DNA of 37,307 nt from positions 1 to 37,307 of the forward strand of contig JAFAYP010000305.1 of the NCBI GenBank assembly GCA_019240305.1. Direction: 5' to 3'. Made by a program: the position numbers and the translations under genes. Origin of the DNA: Solirubrobacterales bacterium. GTDB lineage: Bacteria > Actinomycetota > Thermoleophilia > Solirubrobacterales > Solirubrobacteraceae. The notes beneath the pieces were generated by a model. The model saw only the letters and a program-made list of their open reading frames with translations. It was not told where the DNA came from and did not search any database. The number at the start of each line of letters is the position of its first letter. Within the stretch, counting starts at the first letter, position 1. Of the stretch, positions 30,673-35,027 are shown piece by piece.

Positions 30673-31227
30673 TCAATCCTCGTCGTCGGCGATCGCCAGC
30701 TCGAGCGTGACGGCGATCGTCACCTCCTGACCGAGAACTACTCCGCCCTGGGGAAGCGGCGCGTTCCACTGCAGGCCGACGGCATCGCGATCGACGGTCG
30801 TCTGGAGATCGAGCCCGATCTTCTCGACTTCGCCGAGGGTCACGAACGGTCCGGCGAGCCGCCCGGTTGACGTGATCGGGGTGCTCTGTCCCTTGAGCGT
30901 GAGCGTACCCTCGCTCCTCAACTCACCGTTGTCGACCGTGAGGGATGAGGACTCGACCGTGATCTCCGGGTAACGCTCGGCGTCGAAGAAGTCCGGTGAA
31001 AGCAGATGGCCGCGGAGCCGCTCGTCTTTGATGGAGAGCGATGCGACCTTGACGGTGCCGGTAAGGCGGCCGTTCTCGAGGGTCGCGTCGAAGTCGGTGA
31101 ACTCGCCGCGAAACGTTCCCACCATCATGTGGCGGACGGAGAAGTTCGCTACGGAGTGGACGGGATCGACCTTCCAAGTGCCGCTGGGGACCTCGGTGGC
31201 ACCGGGCGCCTCAGTGTCTGTAGCCAT
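30673..31227 (-). CDS. YceI-family lipocalin-like protein
   Basis: The 184-residue protein carries the YceI beta-barrel pattern from GTWKVDPVHSVANFSVRHMMVGTFRGEFTDFDATL through FDAERYPEITVESSSL to LKGQSTPITSTGRLAG and the closing GGVVLGQEVTIAVTLELAI. YceI proteins bind amphiphilic molecules such as isoprenoid quinones. No signal peptide is visible, as usual for actinobacterial members, so it is probably cytoplasmic. The ATG has an AGGAGG ribosome site. It is the first gene of a two-gene operon with the FMN reductase and is divergent from a TetR repressor, with strong dyads between. Confidence 0.93.
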   Translation of the reverse strand: MATDTEAPGATEVPSGTWKVDPVHSVANFSVRHMMVGTFRGEFTDFDATLENGRLTGTVKVASLSIKDERLRGHLLSPDFFDAERYPEITVESSSLTVDNGELRSEGTLTLKGQSTPITSTGRLAGPFVTLGEVEKIGLDLQTTVDRDAVGLQWNAPLPQGGVVLGQEVTIAVTLELAIADDED

Positions 31228-31252
31228 GCTGGCCTCCTTCGGGGAGAGATCT

Positions 31253-31317
31253 CGGACCGTAGTCCGCTTGTGTTGAGCCTAACACAAACGGACCGTAGTC
31301 CCGTTGCAGGATAGAAT
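31253..31317. promoter_or_regulatory. Nested operators between YceI operon and TetR gene
   Basis: A 13-bp element, CGGACCGTAGTCC, occurs twice in direct orientation at 31253-31265 and 31289-31301, each containing a GGAC/GTCC dyad. Between them lies a third dyad, TTGTGTTGAGCCTAACACAA (31268-31287), with 7-bp arms. TAGAAT at 31312-31317 may be the -10 of the rightward TetR promoter. The flanking GGAC/GTCC dyads resemble known TetR boxes, and the central dyad may bind a different factor. Confidence 0.7.
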
Positions 31318-31331
31318 CCGCTCATCACCGG

Positions 31332-31964
31332 ATGCTCTCCATGTCCTCCCTAGAGCTGCCACTTGCCTCGACGCCTTGTGAGCGCGCCGACGCTGCCCGC
31401 AACCGACAGCGGATCCTCGCCGCGGCAGGACGTCTGTTCGCGCGGGACGGGGTGGCGTGCACGTCGATGGACGCGATCGCAGCTGAGGCGGGAGTCGGAA
31501 AGGGCACGCTCTTTCGCCGCTTCGGCGACCGAGCCTCGCTCGCCCTAGCGCTGCTGGATGCTTCGAGCAGCGCCTTTCAGGAGAATTTCATTCGGGGGCC
31601 GGCGCCCCTCGGGCCGGGCGCTTTGCCCTGTGAGCGGCTCATCGCCTTCGGGCACGGCCTGCTGGAGCACGTCGCCGACAACGGTGATCTCATCCTGGCT
31701 TCAGAGCGCCCGTCAATCTCCGGCGGACGCCTGCACGCCGGCCCCTACGCGGCATACCGGACCCACGTGATGCTTCTCATTGCCGAGGCCGCCCCCGACC
31801 TCGACGCCGACTACCTCGCCGACGTGCTGCTCGCCCCGCTGACCGCGGAGCTCGTGCTGCACCAACTGAAGGAGCGGCAGATGCCACTCGAGCGCCTCGC
31901 CGGAGGATGGGAAAAGATGGTTCACCGGCTCCTCAACGCAGGCGTAAGGGTCGACGACCCATGA
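31332..31964 (+). CDS. TetR/AcrR-family repressor (YceI module)
   Basis: The 210-residue protein has the TetR HTH in AARNRQRILAAAGRLFARDGVACTSMDAIAAEAGVGKGTLFRRFGDRASLALALLD. The ligand domain resembles the SbtR-type C-terminus (FGHGLLEHVADNGDLILASER, then YAAYRTHVMLLIAEAAPDLDADYLADVLLAPLTAELVLHQL). An ATG nine bases downstream (31341) is an alternative start. It is divergent from YceI/FMN reductase and is expected to repress them and itself through the GGAC/GTCC dyads. The inducer is probably an electrophile or quinone, which is inferred from the regulated enzymes. Confidence 0.92.
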   Translation: MLSMSSLELPLASTPCERADAARNRQRILAAAGRLFARDGVACTSMDAIAAEAGVGKGTLFRRFGDRASLALALLDASSSAFQENFIRGPAPLGPGALPCERLIAFGHGLLEHVADNGDLILASERPSISGGRLHAGPYAAYRTHVMLLIAEAAPDLDADYLADVLLAPLTAELVLHQLKERQMPLERLAGGWEKMVHRLLNAGVRVDDP

Positions 31965-32424
31965 GAGCAAGAACAGCTGGCCCACTGCCCGAGCCCGAGA
32001 ATCGTTCGACGACCGTCCGGGGCACAGGGAGGGACGACAGCCCCGCGCAGGCACCCGGATGGCGCCGAACGCTGACCTCCTTGCGCGCGAAGCAAGAGCG
32101 TCCGCCGATCAGCCCGCCCTGGGAACCGGCACCAGCATCGCGCCCCGGCGCGAAATACATCGGTCGATCGAAACGACGATCACGTCTTGCTCGACCCGCT
32201 CGACACCCCGCTCGCTAACAACGCAAACGACGGCAAGAAACACCGTTGGCTGCCCACACATCTACGCCACCACCGATGGTTGCCTCCTTGATCTGGATGT
32301 GCACAGCTGCACTGCGGGATCAAGAGTCTTGAGTGAGTTCATAACAGGAGAGCTTCTCCGGTTAGCTACCGGCCACCAAGCTTTCAAGCGCGCTATTGGA
32401 GACAGTCTCCGGTTGGTCGGTGCT
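31965..32424. other. Intergenic stretch with two orphan palindromes
   Basis: No gene is supported between the convergent TetR and SDR genes. The right end carries two GGAGA/TCTCC dyads, listed separately. The remainder has no frame with protein-like composition. Confidence 0.55.
32347..32410. repeat. Orphan pair of GGAGA-N3-TCTCC palindromes
   Basis: GGAGAGCTTCTCC at 32347-32359 and GGAGACAGTCTCC at 32398-32410 are each followed by CGGTT and start 51 bp apart. They match the dyads at 33499-33544 upstream of the TetR gene, which are followed by CGCTT. They lie downstream of the SDR stop, where no promoter is needed for any visible gene, so they may be left from a lost gene under the same repressor. 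Confidence 0.55.
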
Positions 32425-33162
32425 TCAGGCTTGGGCTGTGGGGCGGACGATGATCTCGCCGACGTCAACGTGAGCGGGCTGCTCGATTGCGTACGTGATC
32501 GCCTCGGCGATCGCTTCCGGTCCAATCGCCATCGTGGCCTTGCCCATCGCGATTTGCGCTTTGGTCTCGGGGTTGGTGATGTCGTGGGCGAATTCGGTGT
32601 TGGTGAACCCGGGGGAGATGACGGTGACCCGCAGGGAGTCCCCGGCCTCTTGTCGCAGGGCCTCCGAGAGCACGCGAACGCCGGTCTTCGTGGCGGCGTA
32701 GACACCTTGCGCGGGGGTGATGCGGTGTACGGCCGTTGACGCGACGTTGACGAAGTGTCCTGACTGCTGGGAGCGGAACACCGGCAGCGCGGCAGCGATG
32801 CCGTAGAGGACTCCCCGCAGGTTGATGTCGATCATCGCATCCCACTCGTCGACTCGGAGGTCGTCGAGCGGCGAGATGGGGCCGATTCCAGCGTTGTTGA
32901 TGAGCACGTCGAGCCGGCCGAACCGTTCGGTGGCCAGCGCAACGAGGCCTTCTAGGTCCTGCCGGCGGGTGACGTCGGTGGCGCGCCAGGCAACCCGCGC
33001 GCCTTCCTGGCTTAGGCGTTGGGCCAGCGCGGCGAGTCGATCCTCGCGGCGCGCGCCGAGAACGATTCGGGCTCGGTGGCGAGCCAGCAGCTCGGCGGTC
33101 GCCTGACCGATCCCGCTGCTGGCGCCGGTGATTGCGATGACCTTGGCGTCAGTGTGTGACAT
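32425..33162 (-). CDS. Short-chain dehydrogenase/reductase (classical SDR)
   Basis: The 245-residue protein is a classical SDR. It has TGASSGIG at residues 12-19 for NAD(P) binding, NNAG at 89-92, and the catalytic Ser142, Tyr155 and Lys159 (YAATK). Arginines after the first strand (GARRE) suggest NADP preference. The Tyr/Lys active site reduces a ketone or aldehyde or oxidises an alcohol. The ATG ending at 33162 has an AAAGGAG ribosome site. It is the second reading unit downstream of the promoter at about 33525-33553, behind a gluconolactonase remnant, so it is probably controlled by the TetR at 33577. The substrate cannot be named. Confidence 0.93.
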   Translation of the reverse strand: MSHTDAKVIAITGASSGIGQATAELLARHRARIVLGARREDRLAALAQRLSQEGARVAWRATDVTRRQDLEGLVALATERFGRLDVLINNAGIGPISPLDDLRVDEWDAMIDINLRGVLYGIAAALPVFRSQQSGHFVNVASTAVHRITPAQGVYAATKTGVRVLSEALRQEAGDSLRVTVISPGFTNTEFAHDITNPETKAQIAMGKATMAIGPEAIAEAITYAIEQPAHVDVGEIIVRPTAQA

Positions 33163-33208
33163 GACGCTCCTTTGCTGGATAGTTGGTTAGAGCGAGAGGC
33201 CGCAGCGA

Positions 33209-33574
33209 TCAGGGGCGGCCCGCTCGCGGGCGCTCGACGGGTATCGCGAGCAAGCGCGTGTCGCGGGCTTCCATGCGTGCGGTTGGCTCAGGGTCCGGCG
33301 CGACGCACAGGTAGAGGATGCACCCGTCGCTTCCGCCGAGCATGCACCCGAATACCCCAGCATCGACCTCGATCGTGTCGGTGATTCCGGCCGCTCGGTC
33401 ACTCGCAGGATCGCGGTTGTGGATCGCATCGGCCACCCATAGCCCCTCCTCGGCGTCCAGGCAGATGACTCCGACGACGCGCTTTCGCTGCCGTAATAGG
33501 AGACCTTCTCCGCTTATGTACCTCACCGTACGGAGACCTTCTCCGCTTGTCAAGCCCGAGTAGTACGCTGACAC
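33209..33574 (-). pseudogene. C-terminal fragment of an SMP-30/gluconolactonase-like beta-propeller
   Basis: The frame contains ICLDAEEGLWVADAIHNR, then IEVDAGVFGCMLGGSDGCIL, YLCVAPDPEP, and an ending RLLAIPVERPRAGRP. This is the last quarter of the SMP-30/gluconolactonase (LRE) six-bladed propeller, where GxFxCMLGGxDGxTLYLC is conserved. The other blades are missing. The first 30 or so residues (from the GTG ending at 33574) read through the promoter and operators and are not homologous. It is a truncated gene whose 5' part has been replaced by the TetR control region, and it lies in the transcript reaching the SDR gene. Confidence 0.6.
33499..33553. promoter_or_regulatory. Twin GGAGA-TCTCC operators within a leftward promoter
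   Basis: GGAGACCTTCTCC occurs at 33499-33511 and 33532-33544, each followed by CGCTT, 33 bp apart. On the minus strand TTGACA (33553-33548) and TACGGT (33530-33525), 17 bp apart, form a promoter with one dyad inside the spacer. The other dyad lies just past the expected start. This is the same layout as the twin dyads at 17549-17603. The divergent TetR protein is the likely ligand. Confidence 0.7.
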
Positions 33575-33576
33575 CC

Positions 33577-34128
33577 ATGCGCTCTGACGCTCAGATCGCC
33601 CACGCTCGGATCATCAAGGTCGCGACCCAGTGCTTCGGAAACGAAGGCACAGAGGCCTCGCTCAACAAGATCGCCAAGTTGGCCAGCGTGGGGCCTGGGA
33701 CGCTGTACCGCCATTTCCCAACTCGCGAGCACCTCATCGACGCGTGCATGGAAAACTGGGAGGCCGAACTGCAGCGCGCGGCCGACCGCGCTGTGAGAAC
33801 TCACGACGACCCCGAGGCGCTCCTGCCCGCGTGGTTTGACGACCTCGTCGCACATATCAGCGTCTACGCGGGTGGTCCCGCGCGTCTGCTTCGGGCTCTG
33901 CGCAGCCGCGACGCGCTGTGGGCCCGGCGCTGGAAGATCCTCGATGCCGCCAACAGCACCGTCTTTGAGCGACTTCGTGACCAGGAAGCGCTCCGCGATG
34001 ACGCCGATCCGCGGCTCGTCTGTGTGCTCGTCTGCGGAGTGGCAACTGCCGTCGAGGAAGGTGAGCTCGACGCCGGCCAGTGCAAGGGACTGTTGCGAAT
34101 CGTCGCCGCCGGCACGCTGAAGCGATGA
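33577..34128 (+). CDS. TetR/AcrR-family repressor (SDR module)
   Basis: The 183-residue protein has a TetR HTH in ARIIKVATQCFGNEGTEASLNKIAKLASVGPGTLYRHFPTREHLIDACMENWEAELQ. A C-terminal domain of the SbtR type follows (PEALLPAWFDDLVAHISVYAGGPARLLRALRSRDALWARRWKILD). Its ATG lies 32 bp after the second dyad and has no ribosome site. It is divergent from the gluconolactonase remnant and SDR gene and should repress them through the twin dyads at 33499-33544. The dyads are also positioned to regulate its own promoter. Confidence 0.91.
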   Translation: MRSDAQIAHARIIKVATQCFGNEGTEASLNKIAKLASVGPGTLYRHFPTREHLIDACMENWEAELQRAADRAVRTHDDPEALLPAWFDDLVAHISVYAGGPARLLRALRSRDALWARRWKILDAANSTVFERLRDQEALRDDADPRLVCVLVCGVATAVEEGELDAGQCKGLLRIVAAGTLKR

Positions 34129-34424
34129 CGTTAGGTCGTCAGCCTGGTCGGAGAGGCGCCATGTAGGCGATGCCCGCGGCGCATACGAGAGGCAGTGAGC
34201 GCTGCTTCAACAAGACTTCTCGATCGCCCCATACCGGCACTCCGGATCTGACTGCCGCTCTACGCGCGGAGAGGGGTAGCCAAGCCGGCGTGACCCATAT
34301 AGGCGTCACGCGGCTGCCGCGCAGCGACGTGGACGACGACTCCTTTCGACATCCGGCGCGAGTCCGCGCCGGGGATTGCATCGGCGACGAAGGAGCCGTT
34401 AGCGCGCAGCCTCGCAAACGAGCG
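34129..34424. other. Intergenic stretch between convergent TetR genes
   Basis: No gene is supported. A 5-bp hairpin TGACG/CGTCA at 34126-34141 straddles the TetR stop and may help termination. The large dyad at 34289-34310 is listed separately. Confidence 0.5.
34289..34310. repeat. 22-bp near-perfect palindrome in a convergent intergenic gap
   Basis: The arms CGTGAC (34289-34294) and GTCACG (34305-34310) flank a partly symmetric CCATATAGGC centre; 9 of 11 pairs match. It lies between two convergent genes, where no promoter is needed for them, so it may be a terminator hairpin or an orphan operator. Confidence 0.45.
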
Positions 34425-35027
34425 TCACGGTCTTGGAGAGCAGCCGAGATTTAGCGTTTCCTCAAACGCGGCTTGCGCCTGCATCGCCAGCGTGCGCGGG
34501 TCGTTGCCCACGCGGGCTCGCGCGGTTTGATAGCACGCTTGCGCGATCTGGGAGGCGAGGACGGCGGTATCGCTGTCGGCGCCGCGGCTAACCAGGATCT
34601 CGGCAAGCTGCTGGGAGAACTGTTGCATCTTCAACGCCTCGCGGGCCCGCAGTTCGGGGTTGCTCTCGACAAGCTCGCAGTGGCGGGAGAAGGCCATTGG
34701 GTCTTGAGTGGCCCGAGCGCATAGAGCGACGACGATGTCGCTCAGTTGTGAGATTGCCTCCTGAAGAGTCGATGGGATCGAAGCATCGATCTCTGATCGC
34801 GCCGACGCGATCGTGGCGAGCAGGTCCTGTTCCTGGGCGAACACGACCTCCTGTTTGTCTCCGAAGTAGCGAAAGAAAGTGGTGCGACCGACATCGGCGC
34901 GGTCGGCGATCTCGGCAACCGACACGGCGGCAAAACCGCGCTCGGCGAACAGGTCCTCGGCCGCGCGCACGATGCGGTCGCGCGCTTGGAGGCGCTTGCG
35001 CTCCGCCAGCGAAGGTCGGTCGTCCAT
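34425..35027 (-). CDS. TetR/AcrR-family regulator divergent from an SDR
   Basis: The 200-residue protein has the HTH in RKRLQARDRIVRAAEDLFAERGFAAVSVAEIADRADVGRTTFFRYFGDKQEVVF. The RTTFFRYFxDKxEVVF form is common in actinobacterial repressors. A helical ligand domain follows, with FSRHCELVESNPELRAREALKMQQFSQQLAEIL. The ATG ending at 35027 is 72 bp from the divergent SDR start. The gap holds a GTACTG/CAGTAC dyad that fits a TetR box. It probably represses the SDR and NTF2-like genes. Confidence 0.92.
   Translation of the reverse strand: MDDRPSLAERKRLQARDRIVRAAEDLFAERGFAAVSVAEIADRADVGRTTFFRYFGDKQEVVFAQEQDLLATIASARSEIDASIPSTLQEAISQLSDIVVALCARATQDPMAFSRHCELVESNPELRAREALKMQQFSQQLAEILVSRGADSDTAVLASQIAQACYQTARARVGNDPRTLAMQAQAAFEETLNLGCSPRP

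Follow-up and report, generated by a model that had tools for sequence, protein, structure and literature searches.

Four predicted operators of a TetR-family repressor, two of them with no recognised gene to serve, in a Solirubrobacterales contig

Four copies of the inverted repeat GGAGA-N3-TCTCC lie inside 1.2 kb of a 37,307-nucleotide stretch of Solirubrobacterales DNA (the window), two of them in front of the gene for a TetR-family repressor, here called TetR2, and two just behind the stop codon of a gene for an SDR-family oxidoreductase, which raises the question of which protein reads them and why the second pair lies where it does. The original prediction placed the dyads at 32347, 32398, 33499 and 33532 with a shared CGSTT tail and the repressor at 33577. 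All of these statements are borne out, as is the SDR gene at 32425-33162 on the minus strand, with ten of ten arm bases present in each copy and GGTT or GCTT following every dyad, the C of the tail being the last base of the dyad itself. The exact pattern GGAGANNNTCTCCGSTT is detected four times in the genome (3.68 Mb assembly, 633 contigs, 73% complete), always within the window, and a reversed-pattern control yielded no match in this genome at zero mismatches. Sixty relatives contain three exact matches altogether, at loci L009, L010 and L011, scoring 13.5, 23.7 and 13.1, respectively, on the operator profile described below. The L010 site (genome G051) is on par with the window's 32398 site, yet it lies partly over the end of an open frame and its 3-kb locus yielded no relative of TetR2. 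Given that L010 exists, a lone site of such quality may arise by chance about once per 60 genomes; chance would not be expected to produce four dyads inside 1.2 kb. Among 396 genomes sampled from the phylum, an exact tandem pair (gap 12-42) is observed in nine, the window's genome included, and two tandem pairs in the window's genome alone. Of the other eight survey pairs, L130 and L131 alone combine scores of at least 16 at both sites with a neighbouring TetR2 relative that has proline at the recognition position; the remaining six have at most one site at that level and no TetR2 match within 2-3 kb.

The predicted reader, TetR2 (33577-34128, plus strand, 183 aa), scores 42 bits against the TetR_N helix-turn-helix model of Pfam, where the cut-off is 24, and 27.5 bits against the C-terminal TetR_C_43 model, barely above the cut-off of 27; its recognition segment reads VGPGTLYRHF. 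At E 1e-20 or better a relative is present in one of 60 other genomes (locus L013), and at 1e-25 in none of 398 other class members, up to eight candidates having been scored per genome. Scanning a species-genome collection with an alignment of TetR2 and L013 as query returned at least 576 relatives. The best 80 of these, 61 of which are actinobacterial by record title, were combined with L013 to give 81 loci, mostly with 3 kb on each side. From 32 of the 81 loci (best 80 of at least 576, plus L013) we collected 54 sites whose core is exactly GGRGA-N3-TCYCC into a 23-bp operator profile with the consensus TAAAC-GGAGACAGTCTCC-GTTTA, in which the core columns are fixed by selection, since sites were chosen by exact core, and the flank columns are free. 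The four dyads of the window score 27.3 (32347), 23.6 (32398), 26.6 (33499) and 21.7 (33532), and nowhere else in the window is a score of 8 reached; 30 simulated windows contained four places at 12 or above, with a maximum of 18.3. With the dyad core omitted, between 0.05 and 0.35% of window positions reach the flank scores of the four sites. In 37 of the 81 loci (best 80 of at least 576, plus L013) the 300 nt preceding the repressor gene contain a site scoring 16 or more; two or more are present in 32 loci, and 44 of the 81 have none. Judged by this conservation across relatives, the four dyads are very probably operators of TetR2.

The presence of a site is associated with the identity of a single residue, X in the segment VG-X-GTLYR: 34 of 37 site-bearing loci have P, A or S there, against 7 of 44 site-less loci (best 80 of at least 576, plus L013), giving a Fisher value of 1.7e-12 in which kinship among the loci is ignored. 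Seven of the 41 P/A/S loci in this set thus lack a site scoring 16 or more. A comparison of exact dyads extended the same set (best 80 of at least 576, plus L013) by one paralogue of the window's own genome, L140, to 82 loci: of the 41 P/A/S loci, 25 have exact GGAGA-N3-TCTCC and none has exact GGAGG-N3-CCTCC, and among the 41 others the respective counts are zero and six, all six with I. TetR2 carries P at this position. L140 (contig C152), the top-ranking TetR2 paralogue of the genome, has VGIGTLYRHF and a GGAGG-N3-CCTCC dyad upstream, which, set against TetR2, suggests a one-residue, one-base specificity switch inside this TetR branch. Eight TetR2-like proteins, TetR2 included, are encoded in the genome at E 0.001 or better, and a paralogue was rejected as reader as TetR2 alone among the eight was found to have P, A or S, three others having I, R and R and the remaining four yielding no recognition segment in a motif search. 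The product of tetR1 (start 31332), which has K at the recognition position, was likewise rejected as reader of the pair behind the SDR gene by its own, differing dyad: GGAC-N3 to N5-GTCC is present upstream in 11 of 12 tetR1 loci inspected, the window's included (21 genomes matched). Two GGACCGTAGTCC dyads lie at 31250-31320, between tetR1 and a divergent YceI gene (30673-31227), and would form a second operator system; relatives of tetR1 have dyads of this kind upstream too. The window contains three TetR-family genes inside 3.7 kb (31332-35027), with starts at 31332, 33577 and 34425. TetR2 is the best candidate reader of all four dyads because the P class goes with GGAGA while L140 and tetR1 go with other dyads; as the genome is 73% complete, a further reader or further sites may be missing from it.

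The 33.5-kb pair was predicted to control a leftward promoter, and this is corroborated by its position. The TetR2-proximal dyad (33532-33544) lies within the spacer of a putative minus-strand promoter (33525-33553) composed of TTGACA (33553-33548), 17 nt and TACGGT (33530-33525), and hand-picked relatives have the corresponding geometry TTGCnA-AAC-operator-G-TATnGT. A promoter-context profile was derived from 20 hand-picked proximal sites of 22, L024 and L096 being left out; on this profile 33532 scores 8.6, a value equalled by 0.003% of window positions on both strands and slightly below the training range of the 20 sites, 9.4 to 29.2. The distal dyad of the pair (33499-33511) is 33 bp away, and adjacent sites are 17-35 bp apart in 34 of 36 cases, the other two being 61 and 67 bp (best 80 of at least 576, plus L013). 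By sequence, the 33.5-kb pair is of the normal layout for the TetR2 branch, with a spacing of about 33 bp and one operator in the spacer of the divergent promoter. In repressor type, paired palindromic operators, spacing and the operator between -35 and -10 it resembles an autoregulated TetR gene divergent from an MFS transporter gene. Pfam assigned MFS_1 to the divergent gene in all ten relative loci submitted to it, which were picked as transporter-like from 34 with a divergent frame; some other divergent genes among the 34 are not transporter-like. The window differs from such a unit in that it has no pump, an SMP-30 remnant and then the SDR gene lying left of the pair instead, and a second operator pair about 1.1 kb away.

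The leftward promoter thus now faces a broken gene, a point absent from the original prediction. The remnant (33209-33493, minus strand) starts directly after the operator pair and comprises the last 94 codons and the stop of an SMP-30/gluconolactonase/LRE gene, the N-terminal part being absent. It is 47% identical over 81 residues (E 3e-13) to an annotated plasmid SMP-30 protein, shares 38% identity with an SGL-family protein from a genome of the same genus (L128; 85 residues aligned), and has no match in Pfam or NCBIfam. The SDR gene beyond it (245 aa; Pfam adh_short, 172.6 bits) is probably read from the leftward promoter, as a putative member of the same operon. Its two closest relatives (74% and 62% identity, from two other genera) are without dyads and lie beside a different TetR gene, and none of the other five SDR relatives compared has a site scoring 12 or more. 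At locus L098 the gene of an SDR relative lies divergently to one whose product shares 34% identity with the window's third TetR (34425).

The 32.35-kb pair fits the motif; its location is abnormal. The dyad at 32347-32359, in the context TAACA-dyad-GGTTA, is the best profile match of the window, and that at 32398-32410, immediately behind the SDR stop, has a right flank that fits the profile and a degenerate left flank. The two are spaced by 51 bp and extend from 14 to 78 bases past the SDR stop, with neither a promoter of the family type nor a recognised gene. The view that this pair has no gene to serve holds so far, as no gene was recognised at the pair or in the stretch to its left (31965-32346): six translated pieces gave no coding match in Pfam, a comparison of the DNA with 61 genomes yielded, besides the stretch itself, two short matches of 25 and 32 bases, and a search of plasmids returned no match. 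Promoter-context scores of the two sites range from -18.2 to -0.4 over both directions, below the level of proximal sites. This carries little weight, as 33499, the distal member of the normal pair, scores similarly low (-14.9 and -9.7); it implies only that the two sites are of the non-proximal type.

It is very improbable that these dyads belong to a hairpin or terminator in the SDR message, or that they arose by chance. Their closeness to the SDR stop would suit the former, and the lone chance site of similar score at L010 the latter. However, the stems are of 5 bp and a T tract is absent, the fold is no better than that of many shuffles, and the flanks match those of operators, which a hairpin would not require; chance would have to place two sites at a spacing of 51 bp within the 1.2 kb that also contains the other pair, and none elsewhere in the 73%-complete genome. 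A terminator or structured RNA at the pair was dropped on the unremarkable fold and the lack of an Rfam match.

It is also rather unlikely that the pair marks a live promoter under repressor control, serving a short RNA or a small gene that escaped recognition and running either leftward to tetR1 or rightward, antisense to the 3' end of the SDR gene. Both dyads are perfect, a leftward TTGAAA-17-TAACCG is present, and the rightward context of 32347 is within the best 0.17% of window positions. The minus strand also has the Shine-Dalgarno-like AAGGAGG at 32289, with another copy at 32082, and terminator-like hairpins at 32246-32230 and 31995-31979; two terminator-like sites in 31900-32450 compare with 0.6 (sd 0.7) in shuffles. 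Conversely, the leftward boxes agree with only 7 of 12 consensus bases and both sites remain below the family promoter-context score. The fold of 32325-32430 is unremarkable (z of -0.77 and -0.81), and neither an Rfam match, to E 1, nor a coding match in Pfam was found. A consensus promoter scan of 31900-32450 is empty as well, yet the same scan also misses the 33.5-kb promoter. Considerably more doubtful is the specific proposal that the pair drives a repressor-controlled small RNA between the SDR gene and tetR1, directed at tetR1 and antisense to it upon read-through; if it were true, one ligand would switch the SDR gene together with an RNA touching a second TetR circuit.

Relatives bear on a further possibility, to which we assign a low probability, that the pair is an auxiliary operator aiding repression of the SDR unit, either through a DNA loop of about 1.1 kb or as a roadblock to read-through toward tetR1. 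The SDR unit is flanked by operators of identical type and the dyads are perfect, which speaks for such a role, but a second operator pair is present in none of the 81 relative loci (best 80 of at least 576, plus L013). Looping is not commonly known of TetR-family dimers. Single sites far from the repressor gene number two in 503,657 bases, L027 at +1479 and L095 at -2051 (best 80 of at least 576, plus L013), and with two relatives having a site off the repressor gene an extra functional site is possible. The L027 site (4480, score 27.8), 1479 bases past the TetR start, is apparently located right before a leftward start codon.

The original prediction also took the second pair for part of a duplicated control region, of which the similarity of operators and flanks stands (a 29-nt direct repeat, 83%) and that of the spacers does not, being within chance. 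Alignment of the dyad-masked spacers was equalled by 3% of shuffles in direct and 10% in inverted orientation. A gapped alignment with the second operator removed beat all controls, but the stretch to be removed had been picked with the data in view; ungapped alignments were equalled by 13% and 3% of controls, and when controls were given the same freedom in the stretch removed, 39 of 400 and 41 of 200 were as good, which is not significant. The spacer-based argument for duplication was therefore dropped, and any claim of duplication would have to be carried by the operators and flanks alone.

We favour, at about an even chance, the explanation that the 32.35-kb pair is a detached operator pair, a control region that has lost its gene and came to lie next to the SDR gene in a recent rearrangement, and that all four dyads bind TetR2. 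TetR2 would shut the leftward promoter with one operator within the -35/-10 spacer and the other just downstream, and probably represses its own gene through the same 33.5-kb pair. An inducing ligand would release the leftward promoter and the tetR gene together, and the leftward transcript would run through the SMP-30 remnant into the SDR gene. The 32.35-kb pair would be expected to bind TetR2 as well, and a rearrangement would have stranded this control region beside the SDR gene. We infer binding, repression, ligand release, co-transcription and rearrangement alike. As the SMP-30 gene is broken, a rearrangement appears to have taken place in this stretch, and detachment of a control region explains the 32.35-kb pair most simply; the rearrangement would be recent because the dyads of the 32.35-kb pair are still perfect and the remnant is stop-free over 94 codons. 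That both dyads are perfect also argues against a detached relic, since a functionless pair should decay, and the absence of any recognised gene piece left of the pair, in Pfam, 61 genomes and plasmids, argues against a lost gene. The undecayed dyads, with 32347 the best in the window, speak for use or for very recent loss, and leave two functional readings, the short RNA and the auxiliary operator.

A described protein with the same C-terminal model as TetR2 (27.5 against 27 bits) is SbtR of Thermus thermophilus, after which TetR_C_43 is named. The SbtR site and the window's dyad are both palindromic and of similar length; the preference reported for SbtR, TGACTGGCCAGTCA (PMC4948773), differs from GGAGA-N3-TCTCC. 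Among the literature matches listed, no title or abstract opening describes a GGAGA-N3-TCTCC operator for the TetR2 branch.

The four-dyad system falls within ordinary TetR biology, its second site being mildly odd. It provides a predicted operator for a TetR branch spread over several phyla and a candidate residue-to-base rule, in which P, A or S goes with GGAGA and I with GGAGG (the latter from six loci among the best 80 of at least 576, plus L013 and L140), and the 32.35-kb pair may represent a minor example of operators that have outlasted their gene or become parted from it.
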